NCBI GenBank assembly: GCA_003697105.1
Contig: RFFQ01000166.1
Span: 1-44,692 of the forward strand
DNA length: 44,692 nt
Source: Gemmatimonadota bacterium
GTDB lineage: Bacteria; 4572-55; J002
Reading direction: 5' to 3'
The translations under genes and the position numbers were made by a program. Positions 27,349 through 39,536 of the stretch are shown here, piece after piece. Within the stretch, counting starts at the first letter, position 1; each line of letters opens with the position of its first letter. The notes below the pieces were generated by a model. It did no database searches and was not told where the DNA came from. It was given only the letters and a program-made list of their open reading frames with translations.

Positions 27349-28383
27349 TTAATAGGTCGAATGATATTTGACCATCCGCCATTGATAATATCCGGTTAAA
27401 TCCTTGACATTAAAATGCCCGTATGGGGCACTGTAAAACACCTTTTCACCATCTTGTCCGGGAATTTGGGAGGTATAATCACCGTACACCACGCCGCCAT
27501 ACCCAATAACTTCATCCACAGTTGACCAGATGGTGTACACATAATCACCCTCATAACCACTGGTGGCATTGATATCCTCCAAAATATCAGAAACGCCATA
27601 GGGACCCATCCCCCACCACAAATAGCCCGGATAAAGTCCGTTGGTATTCGCACACGTGGGGGTGGAACCACCGCTGAGATAGCAGGAGACCAATCCTAAA
27701 TTGGCGCCGGCAATACCGACAAACGTATCCACAAAGGTCAGCGGACTTCCCAGATTGTAATATCCACCATCCAATAGGTCATACCCACTGCCCCCTTTAA
27801 TCGCTTTGCGAGCAAGGGTCACCCCCATCGAATGGGTGATCACATCGACATGATCGGCACCGGTGTATTCTTTCACCGCCAGAATAAATGCTCGGACGAA
27901 GGTCAGATATTCCCGCGAGTGGTATTGATATGCAGATAATGCCGCATTCGCCGGTCCCCACGTGGTGCCGTACAGCTCGGCGGAAGTGTACCCTTGGCTC
28001 TGAAAATAGTCCACGGATTCCGTCCAGCCCGTTTGCCCGAAAACATCACCGAGTGCTTTATCGGAGTTCCCGTGAATAAAGATAACCGGTTGGTTGGTCA
28101 CCGGATCGGAGGCAGTCAATTTACCCCCAAAACTCCCCCCGTCCAGATCGGTCCGGGCAAAATCAAACTCGCCATAACCATTTGCACTCAACCAGTTCTG
28201 AAAGTGGGGTGTTAGCCCCTCGGCAATTGCCGTTTGGGGAGAATCTGTTTTGACCGGTGGCAGGTCTGTTATTGCCGGTTCGTTGCCGGCGGGCACATCC
28301 AGAATTCCATCCGAACCACAATTTGCCAGTGCCAAGGATGTGAGGATCACACCGATTAGCATCCAGTAAAACCGAGCCTTCAT
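27349..28383 (-). CDS. PhaZ7-like extracellular PHB depolymerase, predicted lipoprotein
   Basis: This 344-residue protein starts at 28383 behind a gggagg site. An in-frame start at 28431 lies in the preceding gene and lacks such a site. The signal ends in LALANC (Cys22), predicting a lipoprotein. The enzyme part resembles Paucimonas lemoignei PhaZ7: VIFIHGNSDKA, Ser185 in VDVITHSMGVTLA, Asp290 in YTIWSTVDEVIG and His323 in APYGHFNVK match its triad contexts. The GLVSCYLSGGSTPTC segment matches a cysteine pair of PhaZ7. PhaZ7 cuts amorphous polyhydroxybutyrate outside the cell. The lipoprotein anchor and clustering with phaC/phaE are unusual. A class 2 lipase is the main alternative. Confidence 0.75.
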   Translation of the reverse strand: MKARFYWMLIGVILTSLALANCGSDGILDVPAGNEPAITDLPPVKTDSPQTAIAEGLTPHFQNWLSANGYGEFDFARTDLDGGSFGGKLTASDPVTNQPVIFIHGNSDKALGDVFGQTGWTESVDYFQSQGYTSAELYGTTWGPANAALSAYQYHSREYLTFVRAFILAVKEYTGADHVDVITHSMGVTLARKAIKGGSGYDLLDGGYYNLGSPLTFVDTFVGIAGANLGLVSCYLSGGSTPTCANTNGLYPGYLWWGMGPYGVSDILEDINATSGYEGDYVYTIWSTVDEVIGYGGVVYGDYTSQIPGQDGEKVFYSAPYGHFNVKDLTGYYQWRMVKYHSTY

Positions 28384-28415
28384 AATAAACGCCTCCCATA
28401 AATTAAGGTTAAGGT

Positions 28416-29969
28416 TTAGAACATCAACCACTTAAATACCGAAAACAGCGCCCACGCATTGTCCGGCTTTTCCGTTTGATTGCCATTGGTCAGTGCGCTA
28501 TCGTAAAAATCACCGAGCGCAAGATACGCCCCGTACAGTTCCCAATCCATAAAGATTTTGAACTGATAGCCGACGCTACCATTGACTTCCAAACCGATCA
28601 AGCGACCGCCATTTTCCGGCTCCACGGTACTGAGGGCAAGCGCCGTCCCCGCTTTTGCCGAAAATTTGTTGGGAATTATATCTTTACTAAAATTGAGCGT
28701 ACCCGCTATCAAGCCGTAACCCAAATTGGAGAGGTCACTGACTGCCGACACATAGCGGTTGACAACATTTCCGTGTGGAAAAAGGAGATAAGCGCCACTG
28801 CTGATAACCAGTGCGCCGGGAGATGTCCATGTATTGCCGGTGATCACGCCACTATACAGATCATCATCGAGGGCGTCATCATCCCCGGAGGTAAACAGGA
28901 TGTCCAGCGTTACGGCGTCTTTAGCCGTTTGCCCGTACTTGTAGCCAGCTCTTAGGTTTGCCGCCATTCCAAAAATATCGGTTGAAGTACGCCAGCCATC
29001 TTCATCATGTTGTTGAACATACCCCAAGTTGGCGATGGCATAGCCATTTAAGGCAAACCGGCCAAGTGTAAATTCGGGATTCTGGTTGAAAAACGTACCC
29101 AACCAGAAAATATCCGCCCGATAGGGGTCGCTCCCCAACGGGAAACGAAAAACGCCATTATACGCCGTTAAAGCACTGGTTAAACCTTGGTTAAAAATCG
29201 AAACGCCACCCTCGCCATTCGACCGGTCATGAACATACCAGAAGGAGACGCCTTGCCGCCATGTTTTGGTCAGGTCACGCTCATACATTGCTTCCCACAG
29301 GGCGACATCATCCCGTTCTTGGATGTTATTTTCATATAATTGATAGTAACCCAGTTTCAAGCGGGCAAAATCCTGATCATGCCGTACGGAGATGCCCACC
29401 GCATCACTTCCCCAAAAATGGAGACGATAACCGGTGTACGTCATGGTACTAAAAAAGGTACGGTACGGGTTGTAAGGCGTGTCATAGAGCCGCTGCAACC
29501 CTAAATTGATTGCCCAACCGGGACGTGGGATCAGTTCGACCTCAATATTTTGTGTTTGGATGTTGGTCTGGTCACCTCCGAAGCCACCCCCAAAATTACC
29601 CCCAGCGCCATAATTTTGATCGCCCCACGTCCAATCCACTTCAAACGAGGCTCGCAATAACGCTTTGCCATTAAAAATCTTGGGCTGGTAGATGAGGAAA
29701 GGCAGTAAACGTTGTTCAAAATAGCTGGTGGCAGGACCATTGGTGCTGGTGTAATTACCGCCAAACAATCGACCGACCGTCTGCCCTTTGAAGACATCCG
29801 TTGTGGAGGAAATATTATCGGCAACACCTTTGGTGATAAAATAGGCTAAAAATTGGAACTCGCGCGGGGTTTCTTCCGGCAACCGTTCTTTTTCCGCCGT
29901 ATCCCAATCATTTGCCACCAGTGGCGAGGTGAACATCAACAACATCAGTCCGATAATGGTGATTCTCAT
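28416..29969 (-). CDS. Outer-membrane porin-like beta-barrel protein
   Basis: This 517-residue protein has a cleavable signal peptide (about 1-19, ending SPLVA). It is dominated by amphipathic beta strands such as KALLRASFEVDWTWG, GWAINLGLQRLYDTPYNPYR and DAVTLDILFTSGDDD, and ends in Phe, typical of outer-membrane barrels. The pattern resembles alginate-export or long substrate-specific porins. Its position between a lipoprotein gene and the PhaZ7-like depolymerase suggests transport of depolymerisation products across the outer membrane. That role is inferred from context only. Confidence 0.75.
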   Translation of the reverse strand: MRITIIGLMLLMFTSPLVANDWDTAEKERLPEETPREFQFLAYFITKGVADNISSTTDVFKGQTVGRLFGGNYTSTNGPATSYFEQRLLPFLIYQPKIFNGKALLRASFEVDWTWGDQNYGAGGNFGGGFGGDQTNIQTQNIEVELIPRPGWAINLGLQRLYDTPYNPYRTFFSTMTYTGYRLHFWGSDAVGISVRHDQDFARLKLGYYQLYENNIQERDDVALWEAMYERDLTKTWRQGVSFWYVHDRSNGEGGVSIFNQGLTSALTAYNGVFRFPLGSDPYRADIFWLGTFFNQNPEFTLGRFALNGYAIANLGYVQQHDEDGWRTSTDIFGMAANLRAGYKYGQTAKDAVTLDILFTSGDDDALDDDLYSGVITGNTWTSPGALVISSGAYLLFPHGNVVNRYVSAVSDLSNLGYGLIAGTLNFSKDIIPNKFSAKAGTALALSTVEPENGGRLIGLEVNGSVGYQFKIFMDWELYGAYLALGDFYDSALTNGNQTEKPDNAWALFSVFKWLMF

Positions 29970-30045: not shown

Positions 30046-30588
30046 TTAGTCATCTGCCCGCACATAGTGTTGCACATTGGTTGTACCCAAAGCACCGCCG
30101 TTTGTGCTTCCAAAACCAGCTTCCGCCGTAGGAGCCGTGTTGTTGGTGCCAGAGGTTTGAACCACTTCATACGTCATACGGTGCGGGTTAACATTTGTGT
30201 TAATTTCATAGATACCGGAAACATCCGCAGAATACGGGGCAGATTGCACAATGGCGATATTGCGAATACCCTCAACACTGCTTTCGGTGGTCACGTAGGT
30301 TCCATATAGCGCACTTTCCGTCCCATCGCCATTAACTTGACGGACACTGTACGTACCATCTTCATTGAAATAGGCGTAGATGGAATCAACACCGCCCACC
30401 GCCGCGAAGAGCGTATTGAGCAATGGGGCAACATCATCTCCGGCAGAAATCCATGTGCCCACAATCAACTGTGCCGGATCGGTCGTACTACCCCCGTCAC
30501 CATCGTCATCATCACTACACCCGGCAACAAACAGCGAAAACGCAAGCAACAGCGCTGTCATCGCATAAAAAACAGACGTTTTAGACAT
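30046..30588 (-). CDS. Small exported lipoprotein, lipocalin-like
   Basis: This 180-residue protein has a signal and lipobox LFVAGC (Cys24), then an acidic linker (SDDDDGDGG). The mature part begins LIVGTWISAGDD and contains FNEDGTYSVRQ and ALYGTYVTT, a pattern typical of lipocalin-like bacterial lipoproteins. It should sit on the outer membrane. It lies between the acyl-CoA synthetase and porin genes and may help the latter. No catalytic residues are seen. Confidence 0.75.
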   Translation of the reverse strand: MSKTSVFYAMTALLLAFSLFVAGCSDDDDGDGGSTTDPAQLIVGTWISAGDDVAPLLNTLFAAVGGVDSIYAYFNEDGTYSVRQVNGDGTESALYGTYVTTESSVEGIRNIAIVQSAPYSADVSGIYEINTNVNPHRMTYEVVQTSGTNNTAPTAEAGFGSTNGGALGTTNVQHYVRADD

Positions 30589-30644: not shown

Positions 30645-32147
30645 TTATGCCAAATTCCTCAACGCATTCCGGTTGATTTTACCGGTATCGTTGAGCGGAA
30701 TGGCATCAATAAACCGCACTTGTTTTGGAATTTTATATTTAGCTAAATTGCCCTGACAATAGCGAATAACATCCTCTTCCGTGAGGGTTGCCCCGGCGTT
30801 GAGGACGACATACGCTCGCCCGACTTCACCCCACTTCGCATCCGGAACACCGATAATGGCGACATCGGCAATGGCATCGTGGGTTAACAAAAACTTCTCA
30901 ATTTCCGCCGGATAGACATTTTCCCCTCCGGAGATGTACATATTTTTCTTTCGATCCACGACATAGATGTAACCTTCAGCATCTCGCCGCACCAGATCGC
31001 CGGTCTGGAACCAACCGTCCTTGAGAGCCTCTTGGGTGGCAGTTTCATTTTTCCAATATCCGGGAGTGATGGAGGGACCCGCCAGCACTAACTGCCCCAC
31101 TTCGTCCACATCGACATCATTGCCATAGTCATCGACAATGCGGGCTTCGATGTAAAAATTCGGTTTGCCGATAGAACCCATTTTGCGCACCGCATCATCT
31201 TGGTGCAAACTGGTGACACTGGGACCACATTCCGTCATCCCGTAGCCTTGCCGCACCGGCACCCCTTTCTGGTGCCAAATGTGGATCAGTTCTAGGGGCA
31301 TCGGTTCCCCACCGACCACAAAAAAGCGCAAGGTGGATAAATCTACCGCTGAAAACGAATCCGCCGTTGCCATCATTTGGAGCATCGTTGGTACGGCGAC
31401 AAACATCGTGGCTTTCTCGGTTTCGAGTAAATTCAGCAACATCTCAGGGTCAAACTTCCGGGTGATACTCACATACGCTCCGTGATGAAAAAAGGGAGTC
31501 GGAATCACATTCCACCCGCCGGTATGAAAAAGCGGCATACACGAAACCGAGCGGTCATCCGACGTGATATTAAGCCGCATGGCGGTGTTAATGCTGTTCC
31601 AAAAGAGCATCTTGTGGGTGTACATCGCGCCCTTCGGCAAACCCGTCGTGCCAGAAGTATAAAGAATAAAAATCGGGTCATCCTCTTGGATGTCTTGCGA
31701 TTCCTTAAATTTAGTGGTTTCGTTACGATAAGCATAGCCATATTCGCCCATCTGCGCCATATCCCACACGTGCGCGATATTTTTAGCATACGTACAGTCC
31801 CATAACCTGTTTTTGAAGCTCTCCTGCACCGCTAAAAATGAGGGCTGGCAATCTTGCAACTGGAAGTCCAACTCTCGCGAGGCAAGCCGGAAATTGAGCG
31901 GAACGAGGATCAAGCCGGTTTTCTGCGCCGCAAAAAAAAGGAAAAAATGTTCCAATGAATTTTCGGCAAGAATGGCAATCCGGTCTCCCCGCTTCAATCC
32001 CATCTCGGCGGTGAACAAATTGGCAAATCGATTGGCAACCGTGTTCAATTCCTGATATGTCAGCGTTCGTCCACTTTCTACTTCTTGAACAGCGATTTTT
32101 TTCGGGGAATATTGCACCCACTTGCCCAGCCAATCATAGCGGATCAT
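30645..32147 (-). CDS. Acyl-CoA synthetase (AMP-forming)
   Basis: This 500-residue adenylate-forming enzyme has the P-loop-like motif YTSGTTGLPKG at 163-173, the GYGMTECG motif, the TGDLVRRDAEGYIYVVDRKK hinge and the C-terminal lysine (Lys490 in DTGKINRNALR). The length suits medium- or short-chain acyl-CoA ligases. It converts a free carboxylic acid to its CoA thioester at the cost of ATP. Its ATG overlaps the end of the symporter gene (ATGA), pointing to coupled import and activation. In this locus 3-hydroxybutyrate or related acids are plausible substrates, but the binding pocket cannot be judged by eye. Confidence 0.88.
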   Translation of the reverse strand: MIRYDWLGKWVQYSPKKIAVQEVESGRTLTYQELNTVANRFANLFTAEMGLKRGDRIAILAENSLEHFFLFFAAQKTGLILVPLNFRLASRELDFQLQDCQPSFLAVQESFKNRLWDCTYAKNIAHVWDMAQMGEYGYAYRNETTKFKESQDIQEDDPIFILYTSGTTGLPKGAMYTHKMLFWNSINTAMRLNITSDDRSVSCMPLFHTGGWNVIPTPFFHHGAYVSITRKFDPEMLLNLLETEKATMFVAVPTMLQMMATADSFSAVDLSTLRFFVVGGEPMPLELIHIWHQKGVPVRQGYGMTECGPSVTSLHQDDAVRKMGSIGKPNFYIEARIVDDYGNDVDVDEVGQLVLAGPSITPGYWKNETATQEALKDGWFQTGDLVRRDAEGYIYVVDRKKNMYISGGENVYPAEIEKFLLTHDAIADVAIIGVPDAKWGEVGRAYVVLNAGATLTEEDVIRYCQGNLAKYKIPKQVRFIDAIPLNDTGKINRNALRNLA

Positions 32148-33670
32148 TTTGGTACCTCTGATTTCGATGGAAAAAGAAGAAGCATCAACCCCCCCACCAC
32201 CACGGAGCTTAAAATCGCGATGGCAGCAGCAATCCCAGGATTTCGGACGGCGATCATCTCACCATTCTGCCACATATAACCGGTGATTCCCGGAAATTTA
32301 CCGACATAATAGATGTAAAAATGAACCACCACTGCCGTTACAGAGGCGGAAACCGGCACCCGCGTCGGAATCTGTTTTAGAAAAGTACCAAAAAGCACCG
32401 GTACAAAGGCGGCGGCAAAATAGGCGTACACTCCATTTTGGGCAAAAATACCGACACTGAGTTTTGGATTCACCAACTGATCCCATGAAATAAATGCCGT
32501 TGCCACGGCTAGGATGATAATCACAACACGATTCAGAACCATTTCTGATTTGGTACCGGAGAGCCATTTGCCAAAGATAGGTTTAATAAGGTCTGCCGTG
32601 ATCGTGGTGGAAAGGGATTGGATCAGCGCCTCTAGCGTTGAAAGTCCAGCAGAAATCAGCCCCATCACCACAATCAAACCGATAAAAACCGGAAACTCAC
32701 TCACCACATACGCCGGAATAATTCCATCCATTTTAAGAGGCTCGCCGTTCACCGTGAGATCAGGGAACGTTAATCGGGCATATAACCCGGCAATGACGAC
32801 CAGAAAAAAGAGAAGCTCCGCCAAAACACCCACGGTCAGATAAATATTGACATCTTTATCGGTCTTTAAGAAGAAAGATTTCGTGATGATGTGCGGTTGG
32901 CAGACAATCGCTACCCCCACAATAAGTTGGCAAAAAATAATCTCAAAATAGTCGCGGAAAAGAAGGCTGGTGGGATTGGTGGGAGTTGCCAAGAAGGGGT
33001 CAATAGCGCTGAGTTTTGCCAAAAACCCGTGAACCCCCTCCCGGAAATGCTCATAACCCGAACCGAGTAAAATGACCGCCACAACCAACATGATCCCAGC
33101 TTGAATCGTATTGGTATAAACCAATGAATTGGCACCTCCAAACATCATATAGCCAAAAATAAAGGTGACAATACCGATCAACGCATACAGTTCGGCGATA
33201 TTTAAGGTTTTGGAAAGCACCTTGACCAAACCCACTACAATCAGGACCACAAAGGTCAAAAGTAAGAGCGAAAGCACCGCGAAAAAGAGAGAATACCCCT
33301 CACTTTTATACCGCGAGCCAATCCACTGTGCCATCGTCAGGGCTTTGACCGTCTGCCCGTACTTGCGGAAGCCTTTCGTGAGTATGATCAACGAGATAAC
33401 TGCCGCCACCGGAACAACAATCCCAAAGGAAATCACCCCACTGATACCATAAAGGGCGATAAAACCGGGATTGATGATGAACGTCGCGGCGCTGGTCATG
33501 GAAGCGGCAAGCGACAAGCCTACAAAAATCGGATTAAATGCGATGCTCCCGACGGCATAGTCTGACATACTCTTAATTTTCAGCGCACCCCGAATAACGA
33601 ACACTAGGATGGTCGCCATGTACGCCACTACCAAAATCCAGCCGGCAAATACTAATTGTTGCGATGCCAT
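32144..33670 (-). CDS. Sodium:solute symporter family transporter
   Basis: This 508-residue protein is almost entirely hydrophobic with about 13 transmembrane helices, the layout of the SSS family. Recognisable segments include AASMTSAATFIINPGFIALYG early on and GLISAGLSTLEALIQSLSTT, the conserved helix near the sodium site. It should drive uptake of an organic solute with Na+. Gene order (reductase, symporter, CoA ligase) suggests a monocarboxylate substrate such as 3-hydroxybutyrate; this is inference. The ribosome binding site is gagga. Confidence 0.88.
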   Translation of the reverse strand: MASQQLVFAGWILVVAYMATILVFVIRGALKIKSMSDYAVGSIAFNPIFVGLSLAASMTSAATFIINPGFIALYGISGVISFGIVVPVAAVISLIILTKGFRKYGQTVKALTMAQWIGSRYKSEGYSLFFAVLSLLLLTFVVLIVVGLVKVLSKTLNIAELYALIGIVTFIFGYMMFGGANSLVYTNTIQAGIMLVVAVILLGSGYEHFREGVHGFLAKLSAIDPFLATPTNPTSLLFRDYFEIIFCQLIVGVAIVCQPHIITKSFFLKTDKDVNIYLTVGVLAELLFFLVVIAGLYARLTFPDLTVNGEPLKMDGIIPAYVVSEFPVFIGLIVVMGLISAGLSTLEALIQSLSTTITADLIKPIFGKWLSGTKSEMVLNRVVIIILAVATAFISWDQLVNPKLSVGIFAQNGVYAYFAAAFVPVLFGTFLKQIPTRVPVSASVTAVVVHFYIYYVGKFPGITGYMWQNGEMIAVRNPGIAAAIAILSSVVVGGLMLLLFPSKSEVPK

Positions 33671-33710: not shown

Positions 33711-34454
33711 CTACAGTACCAATCCCCCATCGACACTAAGTACCGCGCCGTTAATAAAACTCGCTTCATCGGAACACAGGAACAAATACGCATTGGCAAT
33801 ATCTTCCGGCTGGCCCAACCGCCCCAAGGGAGTTTTTTCCAATAGCATGGTAATCACCTTTTCCGGAACCGTTTCGATCATCTCGGTGGCAATAAAGCCG
33901 GGAGCTACCGCATTCACATTAATGCCCTTCCGCCCCAATTCCCGCGCCCAAACTTTGGTCATACCGATCACACCCGATTTAGTGGCAACATAATTGGTTT
34001 GCCCAAAATTGCCGTATATTCCGACAACAGACGAGGTATTCACAATTTTACCGGCATTTTGAGCCAGCATATACTCGGCAACCGCCCGAGTACAATTAAA
34101 TACCCCCGTTAAATTGACATCAATTACCTGTTGCCATTGCTCCGGGGTCATTTTTTTAAGTGTGGCATCCCGAGTAATGCCCGCATTATTAACTAGAATA
34201 TCAATCTGCCCATAGGTATCAACCACCGTTTTAGCGGCGGTTTGCACCGCCGTAAAGTCGGTAATATCCACCGACATGAATGTCACCTGCAAGTCCTTTT
34301 GTTGAAGCGCCTCCGCCGTTGCCGGACCCTGAGCCGAGTTGACATCCCAGATCACAACCGTCGCCCCTTCGGTGGCAAATTTTTCAGCGGCGGCACGCCC
34401 TAAGCCTCGCGCACCTCCCGTAATGATTGCGATTTTCCGGTCGAGTCGATTCAT
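33711..34454 (-). CDS. SDR-family 3-oxoacyl reductase (PhaB/FabG type)
   Basis: This 247-residue short-chain dehydrogenase has the cofactor loop TGGARGLG (12-19), NNAG (89-92), and the catalytic set Asn114, Ser142, Tyr155 and Lys159 in QTNYVATKSGV. The spacing equals that of FabG and acetoacetyl-CoA reductase PhaB. Next to phaC/phaE genes, NADPH- or NADH-dependent interconversion of acetoacetyl-CoA and 3-hydroxybutyryl-CoA is the likely reaction. A fatty-acid synthesis role is less likely because no fab genes are nearby. It opens a transcript with its own palindromic operator at 34481. Confidence 0.85.
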   Translation of the reverse strand: MNRLDRKIAIITGGARGLGRAAAEKFATEGATVVIWDVNSAQGPATAEALQQKDLQVTFMSVDITDFTAVQTAAKTVVDTYGQIDILVNNAGITRDATLKKMTPEQWQQVIDVNLTGVFNCTRAVAEYMLAQNAGKIVNTSSVVGIYGNFGQTNYVATKSGVIGMTKVWARELGRKGINVNAVAPGFIATEMIETVPEKVITMLLEKTPLGRLGQPEDIANAYLFLCSDEASFINGAVLSVDGGLVL

Positions 34455-34480: not shown

Positions 34481-34496
34481 TTTGAAAATTTTCAAA
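34481..34496 (-). promoter_or_regulatory. Perfect 16-nt palindromic operator upstream of the reductase gene
   Basis: TTTGAAAATTTTCAAA lies 27-42 nt upstream of the reductase start. Two 14/16 matches occur upstream of the GbsR-like gene (35068-35083) and phaE (37557-37572). Confidence 0.7.
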
Positions 34497-34505
34497 TTTA
34501 TATTA

Positions 34506-34547
34506 TAAAAAAAGACCAGCGGTCTGCACCTCTTCAGACAGCTGGTC
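34506..34547 (-). terminator. Terminator of the GbsR-like regulator gene
   Basis: GACCAGC and GTCTG pair with CAGAC and GCTGGTC (34514-34547), and a run of T follows on the minus strand. It separates the regulator from the reductase transcript. Confidence 0.9.
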
Positions 34548-35040
34548 AGGAATGTTCATAAAGTTTTTTGCGTTCCACCGCCCATTCCTCCAAAAACAAT
34601 TGGTGATATTTTTCCATCAAGGTATAAAAGCGGTGCATTTCACGCATCCGTTGGGAAAGGGTGGATAAATCCCCATTTTCATTCGCTGCTTCCACAGTGG
34701 ATTGAAGCCGTTCCGCTAAGCGGGTATTATTCTTAATCAATTCAAATTGATTACGAAAGGCATTGGCAAAAATTTCCGGCTGAATTTCGTAATAGTCCTT
34801 ACGGGTATCCGGCACCCACACCTTGCGGATGAGGTTTTTTTCCGCCAACCGTCGCACGATTTGGCTAATGGGACCCTTACTCCGCCCCAGCTCATCCGTG
34901 ATTTCATCCAGCGATAAGGGGCGTGGATAGTACAATAATAGGGCAACAATATGCCCCATCAAGGCACTTAACCCGAACGATTGGTACGCATCCCCGAAGG
35001 ATTGGATCATTTCGTGTTTAATGGCGTCAGGTTCGTTCAT
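34546..35040 (-). CDS. GbsR/MarR-type transcriptional regulator of the PHA locus
   Basis: This 164-residue protein starts at 35040 (MNEPDAIKHEMIQSFG). A longer frame to 35163 is basic and lies over the operator, so it is not used. A winged helix is visible at about 40-95: PLSLDEITDELGRSKGPISQ is the recognition helix region, followed by a wing (IRKVWVPDTRKDYYEI). The C-terminal helices with MEKYHQLFLEEW should dimerise. It resembles GbsR proteins, a branch of the MarR superfamily. A palindrome in its own promoter also appears before phaE and the reductase gene, so it is the best candidate for a PHA regulon repressor. Confidence 0.8.
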   Translation of the reverse strand: MNEPDAIKHEMIQSFGDAYQSFGLSALMGHIVALLLYYPRPLSLDEITDELGRSKGPISQIVRRLAEKNLIRKVWVPDTRKDYYEIQPEIFANAFRNQFELIKNNTRLAERLQSTVEAANENGDLSTLSQRMREMHRFYTLMEKYHQLFLEEWAVERKKLYEHS

Positions 35041-35063
35041 TTGGAAGTTCCCAGTAAATTCAA

Positions 35064-35096
35064 TATATTTGGTAATTTTCAAACGAACCAAATATA
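35064..35096 (-). promoter_or_regulatory. Operator region upstream of the GbsR-like gene
   Basis: Two overlapping symmetries are visible. TATATTTGGT (35064-35073) and ACCAAATATA (35087-35096) form a perfect 10-bp inverted repeat. Within it, TTTGGTAATTTTCAAA (35068-35083) matches the operator upstream of the reductase gene at 14 of 16 positions. Confidence 0.65.
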
Positions 35097-35175
35097 CACA
35101 AATTCTAAAAATGCGCAAGCGTTTTTTTACCCATCTGGCACGCGGCATCTCGCCTTTAAACACGGGGTGATGCCA

Positions 35176-36243
35176 TTAACTTCGTTCCTGCAACCAAGCG
35201 GCAATCGCCGGGGCAAGCTCTTTTTGCGCTTTAGAACTCACAAATACGCCAATATGACCGCTCTCAAAGGCATACAGCGATGTATCCGTACTGCCCACAT
35301 GGTCTGTCAAGGGAGTCACGGCGGCGGCGGGCACAATATGGTCTTTGGTGCCATAAATATTCAGTACGGGCATGGTAATATTTTTCAGAACGACCCGTTG
35401 TTCACCCACCCGCAATTTATCTTGGATTAACTTATTCTGTTGGTATAAATCCTTGACAAACTGGCGGTAGCACTCGCCTGCCTGATCGGGGCTATCAAAA
35501 ATCCACTTTTCCATCCGCAAGAAGTTCAGGACTTTCTCTCGGTCATCCGCAATGGTTAAGAAGTTCAGATACTTTTCAATGCGTCCGAATGGGCGTAGCA
35601 TCATGAACCCGGTGTTCAGGAAATCTGCCGGTACAACCCCATAGGCATCGACCACGGCATCTACGTTGAAATCCTTCGCCCAGCGGAACAGCAAGGCATC
35701 ATCGGTGGAAAAATCAACCGGCGTGACGATTGTGGTTAAGGTGTTGACTTTTTCTGGAAACAGCGCGGCATACATGACCGATAGCGTCCCACCTTGGCAA
35801 ATCCCGATGATATTAACCGCCGGACTGCCCGTTTGCTCCCGAATGGCATCCACGCAATTGTCAATATAGCCGCACACGTAATCTTCTAAGGTCAAGTAGG
35901 CATCTGCCCGGGTGGGATAGCCCCAGTCAATCAGGTACAAATCGATACCGTGTGCCAAAAGATTCCGCACCAAACTGCGATCCGGTTGCAGATCGAGCAT
36001 GTAGGGACGGTTCACCAAGGCATAGACCAGCAAGGTCGGGATGCGTGCAGAGGGAGAATCTCCCTGTTGGTAATGGTAAAGTTGGAGCTTATCCTCCTGA
36101 TATACGAGGTCTTTAGGGGCGGTCCCAACATCCACTTCATCAATACTTAGTAAAGTTTCATAAGCACAAAACCATTGACGAAGTTGTTCCATAAGATGAG
36201 CATTTGCCCCTGCCAGATTCACATTGAATAGTGGCGTCCCCAT
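35176..36243 (-). CDS. phaC: Class III polyhydroxyalkanoate synthase catalytic subunit
   Basis: This 355-residue enzyme has the exact size of class III PhaC. The nucleophile Cys149 lies in the lipase-like box GICQGG, and Asp301 (YGTKDHIVP) and His330 (FESGHIG) complete the triad. These positions agree within one residue with Allochromatium vinosum PhaC (Cys149, Asp302, His331). It polymerises (R)-3-hydroxyacyl-CoA, chiefly 3-hydroxybutyryl-CoA, on granules in complex with PhaE. The gene starts 2 nt after the phaE stop behind aagga, so the subunits are co-translated. Confidence 0.95.
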   Translation of the reverse strand: MGTPLFNVNLAGANAHLMEQLRQWFCAYETLLSIDEVDVGTAPKDLVYQEDKLQLYHYQQGDSPSARIPTLLVYALVNRPYMLDLQPDRSLVRNLLAHGIDLYLIDWGYPTRADAYLTLEDYVCGYIDNCVDAIREQTGSPAVNIIGICQGGTLSVMYAALFPEKVNTLTTIVTPVDFSTDDALLFRWAKDFNVDAVVDAYGVVPADFLNTGFMMLRPFGRIEKYLNFLTIADDREKVLNFLRMEKWIFDSPDQAGECYRQFVKDLYQQNKLIQDKLRVGEQRVVLKNITMPVLNIYGTKDHIVPAAAVTPLTDHVGSTDTSLYAFESGHIGVFVSSKAQKELAPAIAAWLQERS

Positions 36244-36245
36244 GC

Positions 36246-37508
36246 TTAATCCTTCTTTTTGGCTTTGGTTTTGGTTTTCATTTGTTTTTCAAGGGAGTTA
36301 ACCTTACGCTTGAGGTCTTGCACCGTTTTGTACAGCTCATCCATCTCCGACCGGAGCACCACCGGGTAACCGGCAAGGGTTTGTTCCATCCATTTTTGGA
36401 GTTCCGCGCGCAGTGCCAGACCCTCTTCCAGCAGTTGATTTTGTAACGTCGAAAATTCCTGAGTCTCAAATAGATCGAGAAAAACCGTTTCATTGGTATC
36501 CAGCCACAATTTGAAAAAGGCATCATAGGTGGAAATATCGTCCCCCGCCTTGATCATTTCCGCGACGCGGTCTGCCACCTGTTCCAATGCGCGCTGTCCG
36601 TGAGTGTAAATCATCTGCTGAAATTCGGCAAAACGACGGGTATATGCCTGATATTTTTCATAAATCGCTGTCATTTGTTCCGCAGGGAATAGGTGCCCGC
36701 TGGCATCATTCAGCAGGGGAGACATCGCCGCTTTGTACGCTTGATTCAGATGATCCATCACCGCAACCGCCGATGATGGGTCGGTTACCATGAGTGACGG
36801 GATGCTCTTCATGGCATGTGCCATCATTTCCGCCAGACGTGCAACCGTAGCATGCCCGCTCCCCATCACCTGTTGCCACAAATTCAAGGTTTGGGTATAT
36901 ACCTCTTTGGTTGCATCTGGTGAAATAAACTCAAAAATGCGATCCATTACCGGTTGGTAGGCTTCCGGGCGAAACAGCGCTTTGTACCGTTCCGGATCGA
37001 ACGATTTATTAAGAATATCGTGTTGTAATGGCAACCAAAGGGTAAATACTTTGGCGTATGCATCCATACTACTTAGCACATTTTCCACCATCCCCTTTTG
37101 CAGATTTCCGGAAACAGCTTTCGTCATCTGATCCATCGATTTCCATAAGGTATTTAACCATGCTTGAGCGGCAGTGGTGGTATCCTTCGGGACAAAATCA
37201 CCAAATGCCTTCTGGCTTTTTTCTAGCGTATCCTGCCATTGCTTCATTTGCTGGTGCTGCCAATCCGCCCATTGCCAGTATTGCTCTTCCGTGGAGTGCT
37301 GAAACCGTTGGAAAGCCTCCAAATACGTCTTCAACCATTCTGATGCGGCATGGGTCCCGTAAGTTGTGTCATCTGGGGGGGCGTCACCGGCAGATGCGGC
37401 ACGTTCTGTGCCGGTTGATGGGGTCGGATTCACCATATCTTGCCACGTTTTCATCCACTGCGCCTGATGTTCCAGCCAGTTGTTAAAAAAAGGGGTTGAA
37501 TTTGCCAT
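36246..37508 (-). CDS. phaE: Class III PHA synthase subunit PhaE
   Basis: This 420-residue protein starts at 37508 (MANSTPFFNNWLEHQAQWMK) behind a caggaggt site. A start at 37529 would place the site inside the gene. It is helical and rich in Trp, Gln and Met, with the typical EQYWQWADWQHQQMKQWQ segment and the YDAFFKLWLDTNE block conserved in PhaE. The C-terminus is a lysine-rich coiled coil (VQDLKRKVNSLEKQMKTK). It has no catalytic triad and activates PhaC. It is longer than A. vinosum PhaE (about 360 residues). It leads the phaEC operon. Confidence 0.9.
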   Translation of the reverse strand: MANSTPFFNNWLEHQAQWMKTWQDMVNPTPSTGTERAASAGDAPPDDTTYGTHAASEWLKTYLEAFQRFQHSTEEQYWQWADWQHQQMKQWQDTLEKSQKAFGDFVPKDTTTAAQAWLNTLWKSMDQMTKAVSGNLQKGMVENVLSSMDAYAKVFTLWLPLQHDILNKSFDPERYKALFRPEAYQPVMDRIFEFISPDATKEVYTQTLNLWQQVMGSGHATVARLAEMMAHAMKSIPSLMVTDPSSAVAVMDHLNQAYKAAMSPLLNDASGHLFPAEQMTAIYEKYQAYTRRFAEFQQMIYTHGQRALEQVADRVAEMIKAGDDISTYDAFFKLWLDTNETVFLDLFETQEFSTLQNQLLEEGLALRAELQKWMEQTLAGYPVVLRSEMDELYKTVQDLKRKVNSLEKQMKTKTKAKKKD

Positions 37509-37877
37509 CAGTACACCTCCTGTAACCAAACGTAAAAATATTTATTATTTATAACTTTTGATAAATTTCAAACGCTGAAAATATAATCAATTCAGGGAAT
37601 CTGTCAAGATTTTTTTGCGGGCAGATGACCCAGTCCGGTGGTGAGCGTTGCTGTATCTGCACCATTAAAGCCTTCGCACTTGACTTTTCAGGCAAAATTT
37701 GATAGAAACTCCATATCACATCTCTGGCGAGGACAGACCCTTCTCCTTCCTCCACCACCATGGAACAACCATAAGGTAACGTGGGCGGCACACAAGAACA
37801 GTTGGGTGTTTCTGTGTGGCTTTGCGCCTTCGGGGTAACGTTATTTTTCAACCGTCTGCAAAGACTTAGCATACATT
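37509..37877. other. Divergent control region between phaE and the TPR regulator
   Basis: The first 60 bases are AT-rich and hold the operator at 37557-37572. The rest (37580-37877) shows no gene with convincing features. A 107-codon minus-strand frame at 37549-37872 has no ribosome binding site or family resemblance. No clear -35/-10 pair was found for the TPR gene. Confidence 0.5.
37557..37572 (-). promoter_or_regulatory. Operator-like palindrome upstream of phaE
   Basis: TTTGATAAATTTCAAA matches TTTGAAAATTTTCAAA at 14 of 16 positions and lies 49-64 nt upstream of the phaE start. Its right side AAATTTCAAACG also matches the copy at 35074-35085 (AATTTTCAAACG) at 11 of 12. Confidence 0.6.
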
Positions 37878-39536
37878 ATGAATCCGAAAATTCAGACCCT
37901 CCGGCAAAAGTTAGCCCATGCCCGAGGAAAAAAGAGAGTCAATCTCTTGAATGATCTGGCATTTGCTTACTGGTCTATTGATCCGCAACAGACAAAATCA
38001 TACGGGGAAGAAGCTCTTCAATTGGCACATGAATTGGATGATGATCCTTTACGAGCCAACAGCTACAGCAGTTTGGGCTCTGCCGCTTGGCGGTTGGGAC
38101 AGTATGATCAAGCCCTCGAATGGTTTCGGAAAACGATCCCCATTTACGAGGCGACCGGTCATATTGACGGTTTAGCCAAAACATATAACAATCTGGGTAT
38201 GGTTTACCAGTACAAAGGGGCGTATATGCAGGCGATCACCTGGCTAAACCGTGCATTGGAACTTAAACAAACCCTAGACAATCCAGATTCAATCGCACGA
38301 ACGTTGACGAATCTCGCGATTGTGTGCCGCCATCAAGGGGATTTCAAGCAAGCCATAGAGTATCAATTGGAGGCACTTCGGATATTTGAGAGGCAAGAAG
38401 ACTGGCTCACGGTCGCGATGTGCTATGATAATCTGGGCTATTTTTACACCGATCTGAAGGCATACGATACCGCCGAACGTTACCTCCAACACGCCCTTGA
38501 GATTTATCGCCGGTACGATCATCTGCCGCAACAGGCGGTTTGCTACCATAATTTGGGCAATATTTTTCAGGAAAAAGGTGCGTGGGATCAGGCATTAAGG
38601 TATTATCAGCGCATCGAAAAGCTGGCAGATACAATTCAAGACCCGCAGCGGATTGCCGCCACAATACAGACCATCGGTCAGGTGTATTCGGCATTGGGAA
38701 ACACGGAACTGGCAGAAGATTACTTACGCCGGGCACAGGAAATGTTCATTCAGATCGGCGATTTACGGAAAATTGCCACAAGCCACCTGCGGCTCGGTAC
38801 ACATTTGTTGACCGTCAACGCCTTTGATTCCGCGGAGGCACAATTCCGGCAAGCCCTAGAACAGGCAGAGAAAATTGGAGCAAAAGATGTACAATCCAAT
38901 GCCTTGCGGGAACTTGCCCAATTGTACGAAATTCAAAAAGATTTCTCACAGGCGCTTGCTTTTTACAAGGCGCACCACCGGGCAGAACAGGAACTGTTCA
39001 CTCGCCAAAAAACCGAGGCTATTGAACGGTTACGCATCGAGTACGAAAGTGAACGTAAGGAAAAAGAGGCGGAAATTTACCGGTTGAAAAATGCCCGCCT
39101 CGAAGCGGAAATCCGGCATAAAAACCAGGAGTTGCACTTGCTCGCGTTGAATCTGGTGCAAAAAAATCAGTGGATCGAGGACATCAAGGCGCAGATTCAG
39201 GCGGCACAACCCCAAACCGGCTTGGCGAATTGGATCGACCAACTCCGGCAAAGACTTGACAGACTTCAGGAATCCGAAGCGGATTGGGACGCCCTTGAAC
39301 AGCAATTTCAGATGGTTCACCGCGATTTTATCGAACGTCTTTCTCACCATTACCCCAATCTCACCCCTATGGAACTCAAAGTCTGCGCTCTGCTCAAACT
39401 TAACCTCACCACAGCGGACATTGCCACCATATTGTGTCGCTCTAACCGCAGTGTTGAGGATCACCGGCAATCCCTCCGCCGCAAATTTGGCTTGAAGCGC
39501 TCCCAAAACCTCGCCTCGTTCGTTGTTTCCCTTTAA
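37878..39536 (+). CDS. TPR protein with C-terminal LuxR-like HTH
   Basis: This 552-residue cytoplasmic protein has about ten TPR repeats at residues 20-380 (for example AKTYNNLGMVYQYKGAYMQA), a coiled coil at about 385-430 (TEAIERLRIEYESERKEKEA) and a LuxR-like helix-turn-helix at the C-terminus (LTPMELKVCALLKLNLTTAD, residues about 490-552). This architecture is common in Bacteroidota/FCB regulators that respond through TPR-bound partners. No signal peptide or sensor domain is seen. The start has no clear ribosome binding site. It is divergent from phaE with an operator between, so regulation of or by the PHA locus is possible. A strong terminator follows. Confidence 0.85.
   Translation: MNPKIQTLRQKLAHARGKKRVNLLNDLAFAYWSIDPQQTKSYGEEALQLAHELDDDPLRANSYSSLGSAAWRLGQYDQALEWFRKTIPIYEATGHIDGLAKTYNNLGMVYQYKGAYMQAITWLNRALELKQTLDNPDSIARTLTNLAIVCRHQGDFKQAIEYQLEALRIFERQEDWLTVAMCYDNLGYFYTDLKAYDTAERYLQHALEIYRRYDHLPQQAVCYHNLGNIFQEKGAWDQALRYYQRIEKLADTIQDPQRIAATIQTIGQVYSALGNTELAEDYLRRAQEMFIQIGDLRKIATSHLRLGTHLLTVNAFDSAEAQFRQALEQAEKIGAKDVQSNALRELAQLYEIQKDFSQALAFYKAHHRAEQELFTRQKTEAIERLRIEYESERKEKEAEIYRLKNARLEAEIRHKNQELHLLALNLVQKNQWIEDIKAQIQAAQPQTGLANWIDQLRQRLDRLQESEADWDALEQQFQMVHRDFIERLSHHYPNLTPMELKVCALLKLNLTTADIATILCRSNRSVEDHRQSLRRKFGLKRSQNLASFVVSL

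Follow-up and report, generated by a model that had tools for sequence, protein, structure and literature searches.

Contig RFFQ01000166.1 of a Gemmatimonadota bacterium (GenBank assembly GCA_003697105.1), analyzed over its 44,692 nucleotides (nt) and hereafter called the window, carries a 16-bp palindrome upstream of three genes, encoding a class III polyhydroxyalkanoate (PHA) synthase subunit, a GbsR-type regulator and a 3-ketoacyl reductase. An earlier note on this DNA had proposed that the palindrome, one copy being perfect and two matching at 14 of 16 positions, all promoter-proximal, defines a PHA regulon, that a MarR-superfamily regulator is encoded among the targets and that this control is unrelated to PhaR. 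The coordinates of the window sequence bear out the three copies as described. The features concerned are as follows.

37557-37572, minus strand: putative operator copy 3, TTTGATAAATTTCAAA, 14/16, 48 nt upstream of the phaE start codon (37508).
36246-37508, minus strand: phaE, class III PHA synthase subunit (PF09712, 80.9 bits, above cut-off; TIGR01834, 69.2 bits, below cut-off).
35176-36243, minus strand: phaC, class III PHA synthase, GICQGG box present (TIGR01836, 474.7 bits, cut-off 365.3).
35068-35083, minus strand: putative operator copy 2, TTTGGTAATTTTCAAA, 14/16, 27 nt upstream of the regulator start codon (35040).
34549-35040, minus strand: regulator of 164 amino acids (aa), GbsR family (MarR superfamily), predicted repressor of all three promoters (sequence, structural model and fold matches).
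34514-34547, minus strand: terminator-like hairpin with a T run, overlapping the stop codon of the regulator (from sequence).
34481-34496, minus strand: putative operator copy 1, TTTGAAAATTTTCAAA, perfect 16-bp palindrome, 26 nt upstream of the reductase start codon (34454).
33711-34454, minus strand: FabG/PhaB-type 3-ketoacyl reductase (phaB/fabG), heading the downstream operon (NF004198, 320 bits, above the cut-off of 296).

With PhaC above the TIGR01836 cut-off and PhaE adjacent to it, the locus is of the class III PHA synthase type. The reductase stays below the cut-off of the acetoacetyl-CoA reductase model TIGR01829 (263 bits, cut-off 302). The hairpin splits the phaE-phaC-regulator run from the reductase operon, which should therefore have its own promoter. 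Copy 2 starts 7 nt past TATATT (35091-35096), with TTGCGC (35113-35118) lying 16 nt further upstream, and copy 3 starts 7 nt past another TATATT (ending at 37580) with TTGACA at 37607; the phaE and regulator promoters of the window have the same spacing, N16 between the boxes and N7 from the -10 box to the putative operator. An alternative GTG start of the regulator at 35163 would place copy 2 inside the reading frame; the start is assigned to the ATG at 35040 because the orthologue alignment puts it there.

The regulator has its best sequence match in the PDB with Mj223 (1ku9, E=1.5e-12), and its AlphaFold2 model (predicted local distance difference test score 95) gave Foldseek fold matches to 4nb5, 1ku9 and 5jbr. 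An N-terminal winged helix-turn-helix, a linker and C-terminal dimerisation helices are arranged as in Mj223, so that on sequence and modelled fold the protein is assigned to the GbsR family with an Mj223-like winged helix, in agreement with the MarR-superfamily membership proposed earlier. It is not a CudC-like choline regulator by the equivalog model for CudC/GbsR (NF047500), against which it scored 52.2 bits, far under the cut-off of 218, and genes of betaine synthesis or Opu transport are not found beside it, its neighbours being PHA and acyl genes. Neither PhaR nor PHB (polyhydroxybutyrate) accumulation regulatory domains were matched among the Pfam or NCBIfam hits, which upholds the claimed independence from PhaR, and the PhaQ family model is absent from the NCBIfam hits at E<=1e-3.

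Dinucleotide shuffling of the three intergenic regions produced a site with no more than two mismatches in 0.1%, 0.14% and 0.06% of trials, and all three sites together in 0 of 5000 shuffles. The 4.18-Mb genome was then scanned by pattern search. The WW-centred form TTTGAAAWWTTTCAAA gave 35 sites at <=2 mismatches, 32 of them inside open reading frames (ORFs), the three copies of the window being the only promoter-proximal ones in the genome; the 16-mer as first reported gave 16 sites. Every site outside the locus, with either pattern, falls within an ORF of at least 118 aa; length, not homology, was the criterion for these ORFs, and two or three may not be genuine. The possibility raised in the earlier note, that the motif might be common across AT-rich intergenic DNA, thus fails, since all off-locus sites lie in ORFs.

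Close orthologues of the regulator (58-63% identity) occur in Melioribacteraceae, Ignavibacteriales, Kapabacterium and related genomes. In the class of the window genome one other genome was compared and it is without the regulator, and for this reason the phylogenetic footprint rests on relatives from other groups; 32 relatives of the regulator, three of them only ~35% identical, were collected among 294 genomes from the class of one close orthologue. The order regulator, reductase, FabH-like synthase, SSF symporter, acyl-CoA ligase, lipoprotein and porin is conserved in orthologous loci, the FabH-like gene being missing from the window at the corresponding place. Most of these loci have the palindrome upstream of both genes, at a distance of ~25 nt from the regulator gene and ~40 nt from the reductase gene; in some it precedes the first gene of the regulator's operon instead. 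In a strict count at <=2 mismatches, 45 of the 64 upstream regions, each 120 nt long, contained it, while the best of 139 permuted palindromes reached 3 of the same regions (median 0); orthologues of the reductase are preceded by it in 25 of 29 loci. Eight of the 19 regions scored as devoid of a site belong to two rearranged arrangements: in four loci (L085, L089, L093 and L102) the regulator occupies the second place of its operon, behind a thiolase gene, and the site precedes the thiolase, and in four Kapabacteria loci (L103-L106) the regulator is third, behind phaE and phaC, the site lying between phaZ7 and phaE. Judging from these sequences, the site is found at the head of the operon wherever the genes are arranged differently.

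The consensus derived from 62 sites is AwCGTTTGAAAWWTTTCAAACGwT, and regulator promoters of the orthologues conform to TTGAC-N17-TAnnTT-N7-operator. The distance from the -10 box to the operator is exactly 7 nt in 14 of 26 scored promoters, and most of the values far from it come from weak matches upstream of the reductase. At 7 nt after the -10 box the operator should cover the predicted transcription start. In Bacillus subtilis, GbsR represses via an A/T-rich inverted repeat located downstream of the transcription start (PMC7396694), and the position predicted here, as far as the predicted start site allows the comparison, would agree with that of the GbsR operator as described.

The 16-mer by itself cannot serve to predict a regulon in AT-rich relatives, where it gives up to 162 sites per genome versus 51 for a reversed control and where some perfect 16-mers (L045, L034) lie inside coding sequence; the extended 20-mer CGTTTGAAAWWTTTCAAACG was used instead. 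At <=1 mismatch it was found in 18 of the 294 genomes, namely in 16 of 32 regulator-positive versus 2 of 262 regulator-negative ones, and its reversed control pattern gave zero sites in the same set. In regulator-positive genomes 19 of 20 sites precede regulon genes, the remaining one (G169) being inside coding sequence. The two matches in regulator-negative genomes, one inside a rho-like gene (G289) and one near the start of a flavoprotein gene (G337), both look like chance. In two Kapabacteria genomes (G302 and G344) the FabH-like gene is located elsewhere, on a separate contig, where its operon also contains an MFS transporter, a TonB-dependent receptor and an acyl-CoA ligase, joined in G344, the genome whose domains were checked, by a MaoC-type dehydratase. 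Two perfect palindromes about 110-120 bp apart precede this unlinked operon in both genomes (L163 and L164), and perfect copies occur in them only there and at the reductase promoter. The association can therefore not be put down to physical linkage. In a small control of three loci (L159-L161), FabH-like clusters without the regulator had the site in none. A perfect intergenic palindrome was also noticed in G219 (L167, at 1501) beside a gene for a TonB-dependent receptor-like protein, which might be another target.

Taking the palindromes for chance products of AT-rich promoter sequence, or for RNA or DNA hairpins without a protein ligand, would be in keeping with the AT-richness of the region and with the fact that intergenic DNA may contain palindromes at random. 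This explanation deserves practically no credence: both arms are conserved whereas the flanks are freer, the motif is absent from the other promoter-proximal DNA of the genome, and chance origin is ruled out statistically by the shuffles, the permuted palindromes, the genome scan and the regulator-motif co-occurrence.

Another possibility is that the palindrome is bound by a different factor, the GbsR-like gene being merely a target. A candidate is encoded next to the locus.

37878-39536, plus strand: 552-aa TPR protein with a C-terminal LuxR-type helix-turn-helix (profile match), divergent from phaE; second possible regulator of the phaE promoter.

The site, however, follows the GbsR-like gene wherever it goes, including the promoter of the regulator itself, and the co-occurrence counts point to the GbsR-like protein, which makes a different factor improbable. 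The palindrome is almost certainly, as far as comparative sequence evidence reaches, the binding site of the adjacent GbsR-type regulator. The reading as a shared operator is supported by phylogenetic footprinting, the co-occurrence of regulator and motif, the fixed promoter geometry and the unlinked target.

Several points weigh against this assignment. The Fisher test of co-occurrence (p=8e-16) is inflated and overstates independence because the compared genomes are related, and another co-occurring factor could bind the motif. The copy in front of the regulator gene is the weakest of the window's sites, and a second inverted repeat, TATATTTGGT-N13-ACCAAATATA (35064-35096), overlaps this putative operator and its -10 box. 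Degenerate or different repeats are found in a four-genome subclade (L094, L098, L099 and L101) and in a sister clade of the regulator (L150-L153 and L162, ~35% identity). Such degenerate or different repeats, standing at the operator position in divergent clades, would fit co-evolution of protein and site. In the sister clade the gene neighbours are the same and a repeat of AATGTT...AACATT type occupies the operator position, possibly reflecting a switch of operator specificity.

With considerable confidence, we regard the whole as best explained by an operator of an autoregulated GbsR-type repressor placed at the transcription start, with release by an acyl metabolite and an ancestral acyl regulon. 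A regulator dimer would bind the consensus palindrome where transcription of phaE, of the regulator gene and of the phaB-symporter-ligase-lipoprotein-porin-lipase run is predicted to start, and once bound would block RNA polymerase at all three promoters, its own included. A small acyl metabolite would release it, most likely acyl-CoA or (R)-3-hydroxyacyl-CoA produced by the regulated ligase or reductase. The ancestral regulon would have comprised uptake, activation and condensation/reduction of acyl chains, and PHA synthase genes would be under the regulator in the window's lineage and in Kapabacteria. The remaining genes of the run in the window are listed below.

32144-33670, minus strand: SSF-family sodium:solute symporter (PF00474), syntenic in most orthologous loci.
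30645-32147, minus strand: acyl-CoA ligase (PF00501, PF13193), syntenic.
30046-30588, minus strand: small lipoprotein-like protein, syntenic, no Pfam match.
28416-29969, minus strand: predicted outer-membrane porin-like protein, syntenic, no family match in Pfam or NCBIfam; sequence and context suggest a porin.
27349-28431, minus strand: secreted lipase or PhaZ7-like depolymerase, last of the run (PF01674, 195 bits; NF050060, 90 bits, below the cut-off of 450).

Whether the regulon is devoted to PHA was assessed by a search for PHA synthase in 36 genomes at E<=1e-15; G001, which has no regulator, and G059, whose relative is just 39% identical, were set aside, leaving 34 regulator-bearing ones. 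The synthase was found in 4 of these 34, all with Kapabacteria-type loci, and was not found at this threshold in the 30 others, which keep the regulator and the cluster. Kapabacteria have a second phaC (L121-L124), and no site within 3 mismatches was detected in the stretch of DNA scanned around it. The motif as a property of PHA genes as such is thus ruled out, by this second phaC and by the lack of phaC in most regulator-bearing genomes. A strict PHA regulon, in which the regulator would respond to PHB or 3-hydroxybutyryl-CoA and have the control of polymer synthesis as its purpose, would account for the operator shared by phaE and phaC in the window and four Kapabacteria, and for the inclusion of the PhaZ7-like lipase and, in some relatives, of a thiolase; set against the 30 genomes and the site-less second phaC it appears unlikely. 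Consequently, of the claim in the earlier note, the shared operator recognised by the GbsR-like regulator stands, as judged from sequence, and its definition by PHA does not: the term is too narrow because regulator, palindrome and acyl genes persist where phaC is so rarely present. The constant targets are the reductase, the FabH-like enzyme, the transporter, the acyl-CoA ligase and the porin, and the predicted regulon is better described as one of acyl uptake, activation and 3-ketoacyl/3-hydroxyacyl metabolism, to which PHA synthase was added, or in which it was retained, in some lineages. PHA synthase would then be a lineage-specific regulon member, in the window and in Kapabacteria.

The GbsR family of MarR-type repressors includes GbsR, OpcR, OpuAR and CydE (PMC6207618, PMC7396694). 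Characterised members govern genes of betaine synthesis, Opu transporters or cytochrome bd, and 73 of 179 GbsR homologues, mainly from Euryarchaeota and Bacteroidetes, were left without deducible function (PMC6207618). The regulator of the window resembles the family in its Mj223-like fold, and the A/T-rich inverted repeat of GbsR would fit the arrangement predicted here, but the clade of the window regulator is associated with an acyl/PHA cluster and scores far short of the CudC cut-off. PhaQ of Bacillus megaterium is a PHB-responsive autoregulated repressor acting on its own gene and a phasin gene (PMC9049629). It shares with the window regulator the location in a PHA locus and autoregulation, predicted in our case, and differs from it in targets and in the family model. 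The PHB-binding regulator PhaR/AniA likewise controls PHA genes, but through a protein whose domain is not matched here. FabT is a MarR-family repressor heading a fatty-acid synthesis operon, with acyl-ACP enhancing its binding (PMC9083066, PMC13046290). The window regulator would be similar to it as a MarR-superfamily repressor of its own operon, with fatty-acid synthesis genes and palindromic operators. FabT operators have TTTGA...TCAAA arms, with a half-site spacing shorter than that of the window's palindrome. From the target genes we infer an acyl-CoA or 3-hydroxyacyl-CoA ligand; FabT and CouR, the latter with p-coumaroyl-CoA given as its ligand, are precedents.

A literature search combining GbsR and polyhydroxyalkanoate returned just two papers, with a single mention of GbsR in each. 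We tentatively put forward, at somewhat less than even chances, that a new GbsR-type clade of Ignavibacteria, Kapabacteria and the isolated lineage of the window responds to acyl-CoA or (R)-3-hydroxyacyl-CoA and, through one shared operator, links intracellular PHA synthesis to the scavenging of lipid or polyester from outside (lipase, porin, symporter and ligase). If true, acyl metabolism and a PHA synthase would for the first time be seen under the control of the GbsR family. In the predicted arrangement PHA synthase comes under a regulator that has genes of acyl uptake and condensation as its conserved targets. As a mechanism, local autorepression is nothing unusual; what the comparison adds for a clade of GbsR-family proteins is a probable function together with an operator sequence and a list of targets.

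The orthologue of the PhaZ7-like lipase is divergent from phaE in the Kapabacteria loci L103-L106, and its position at the end of the reductase operon in the window suggests scavenging of external polyester or lipid.

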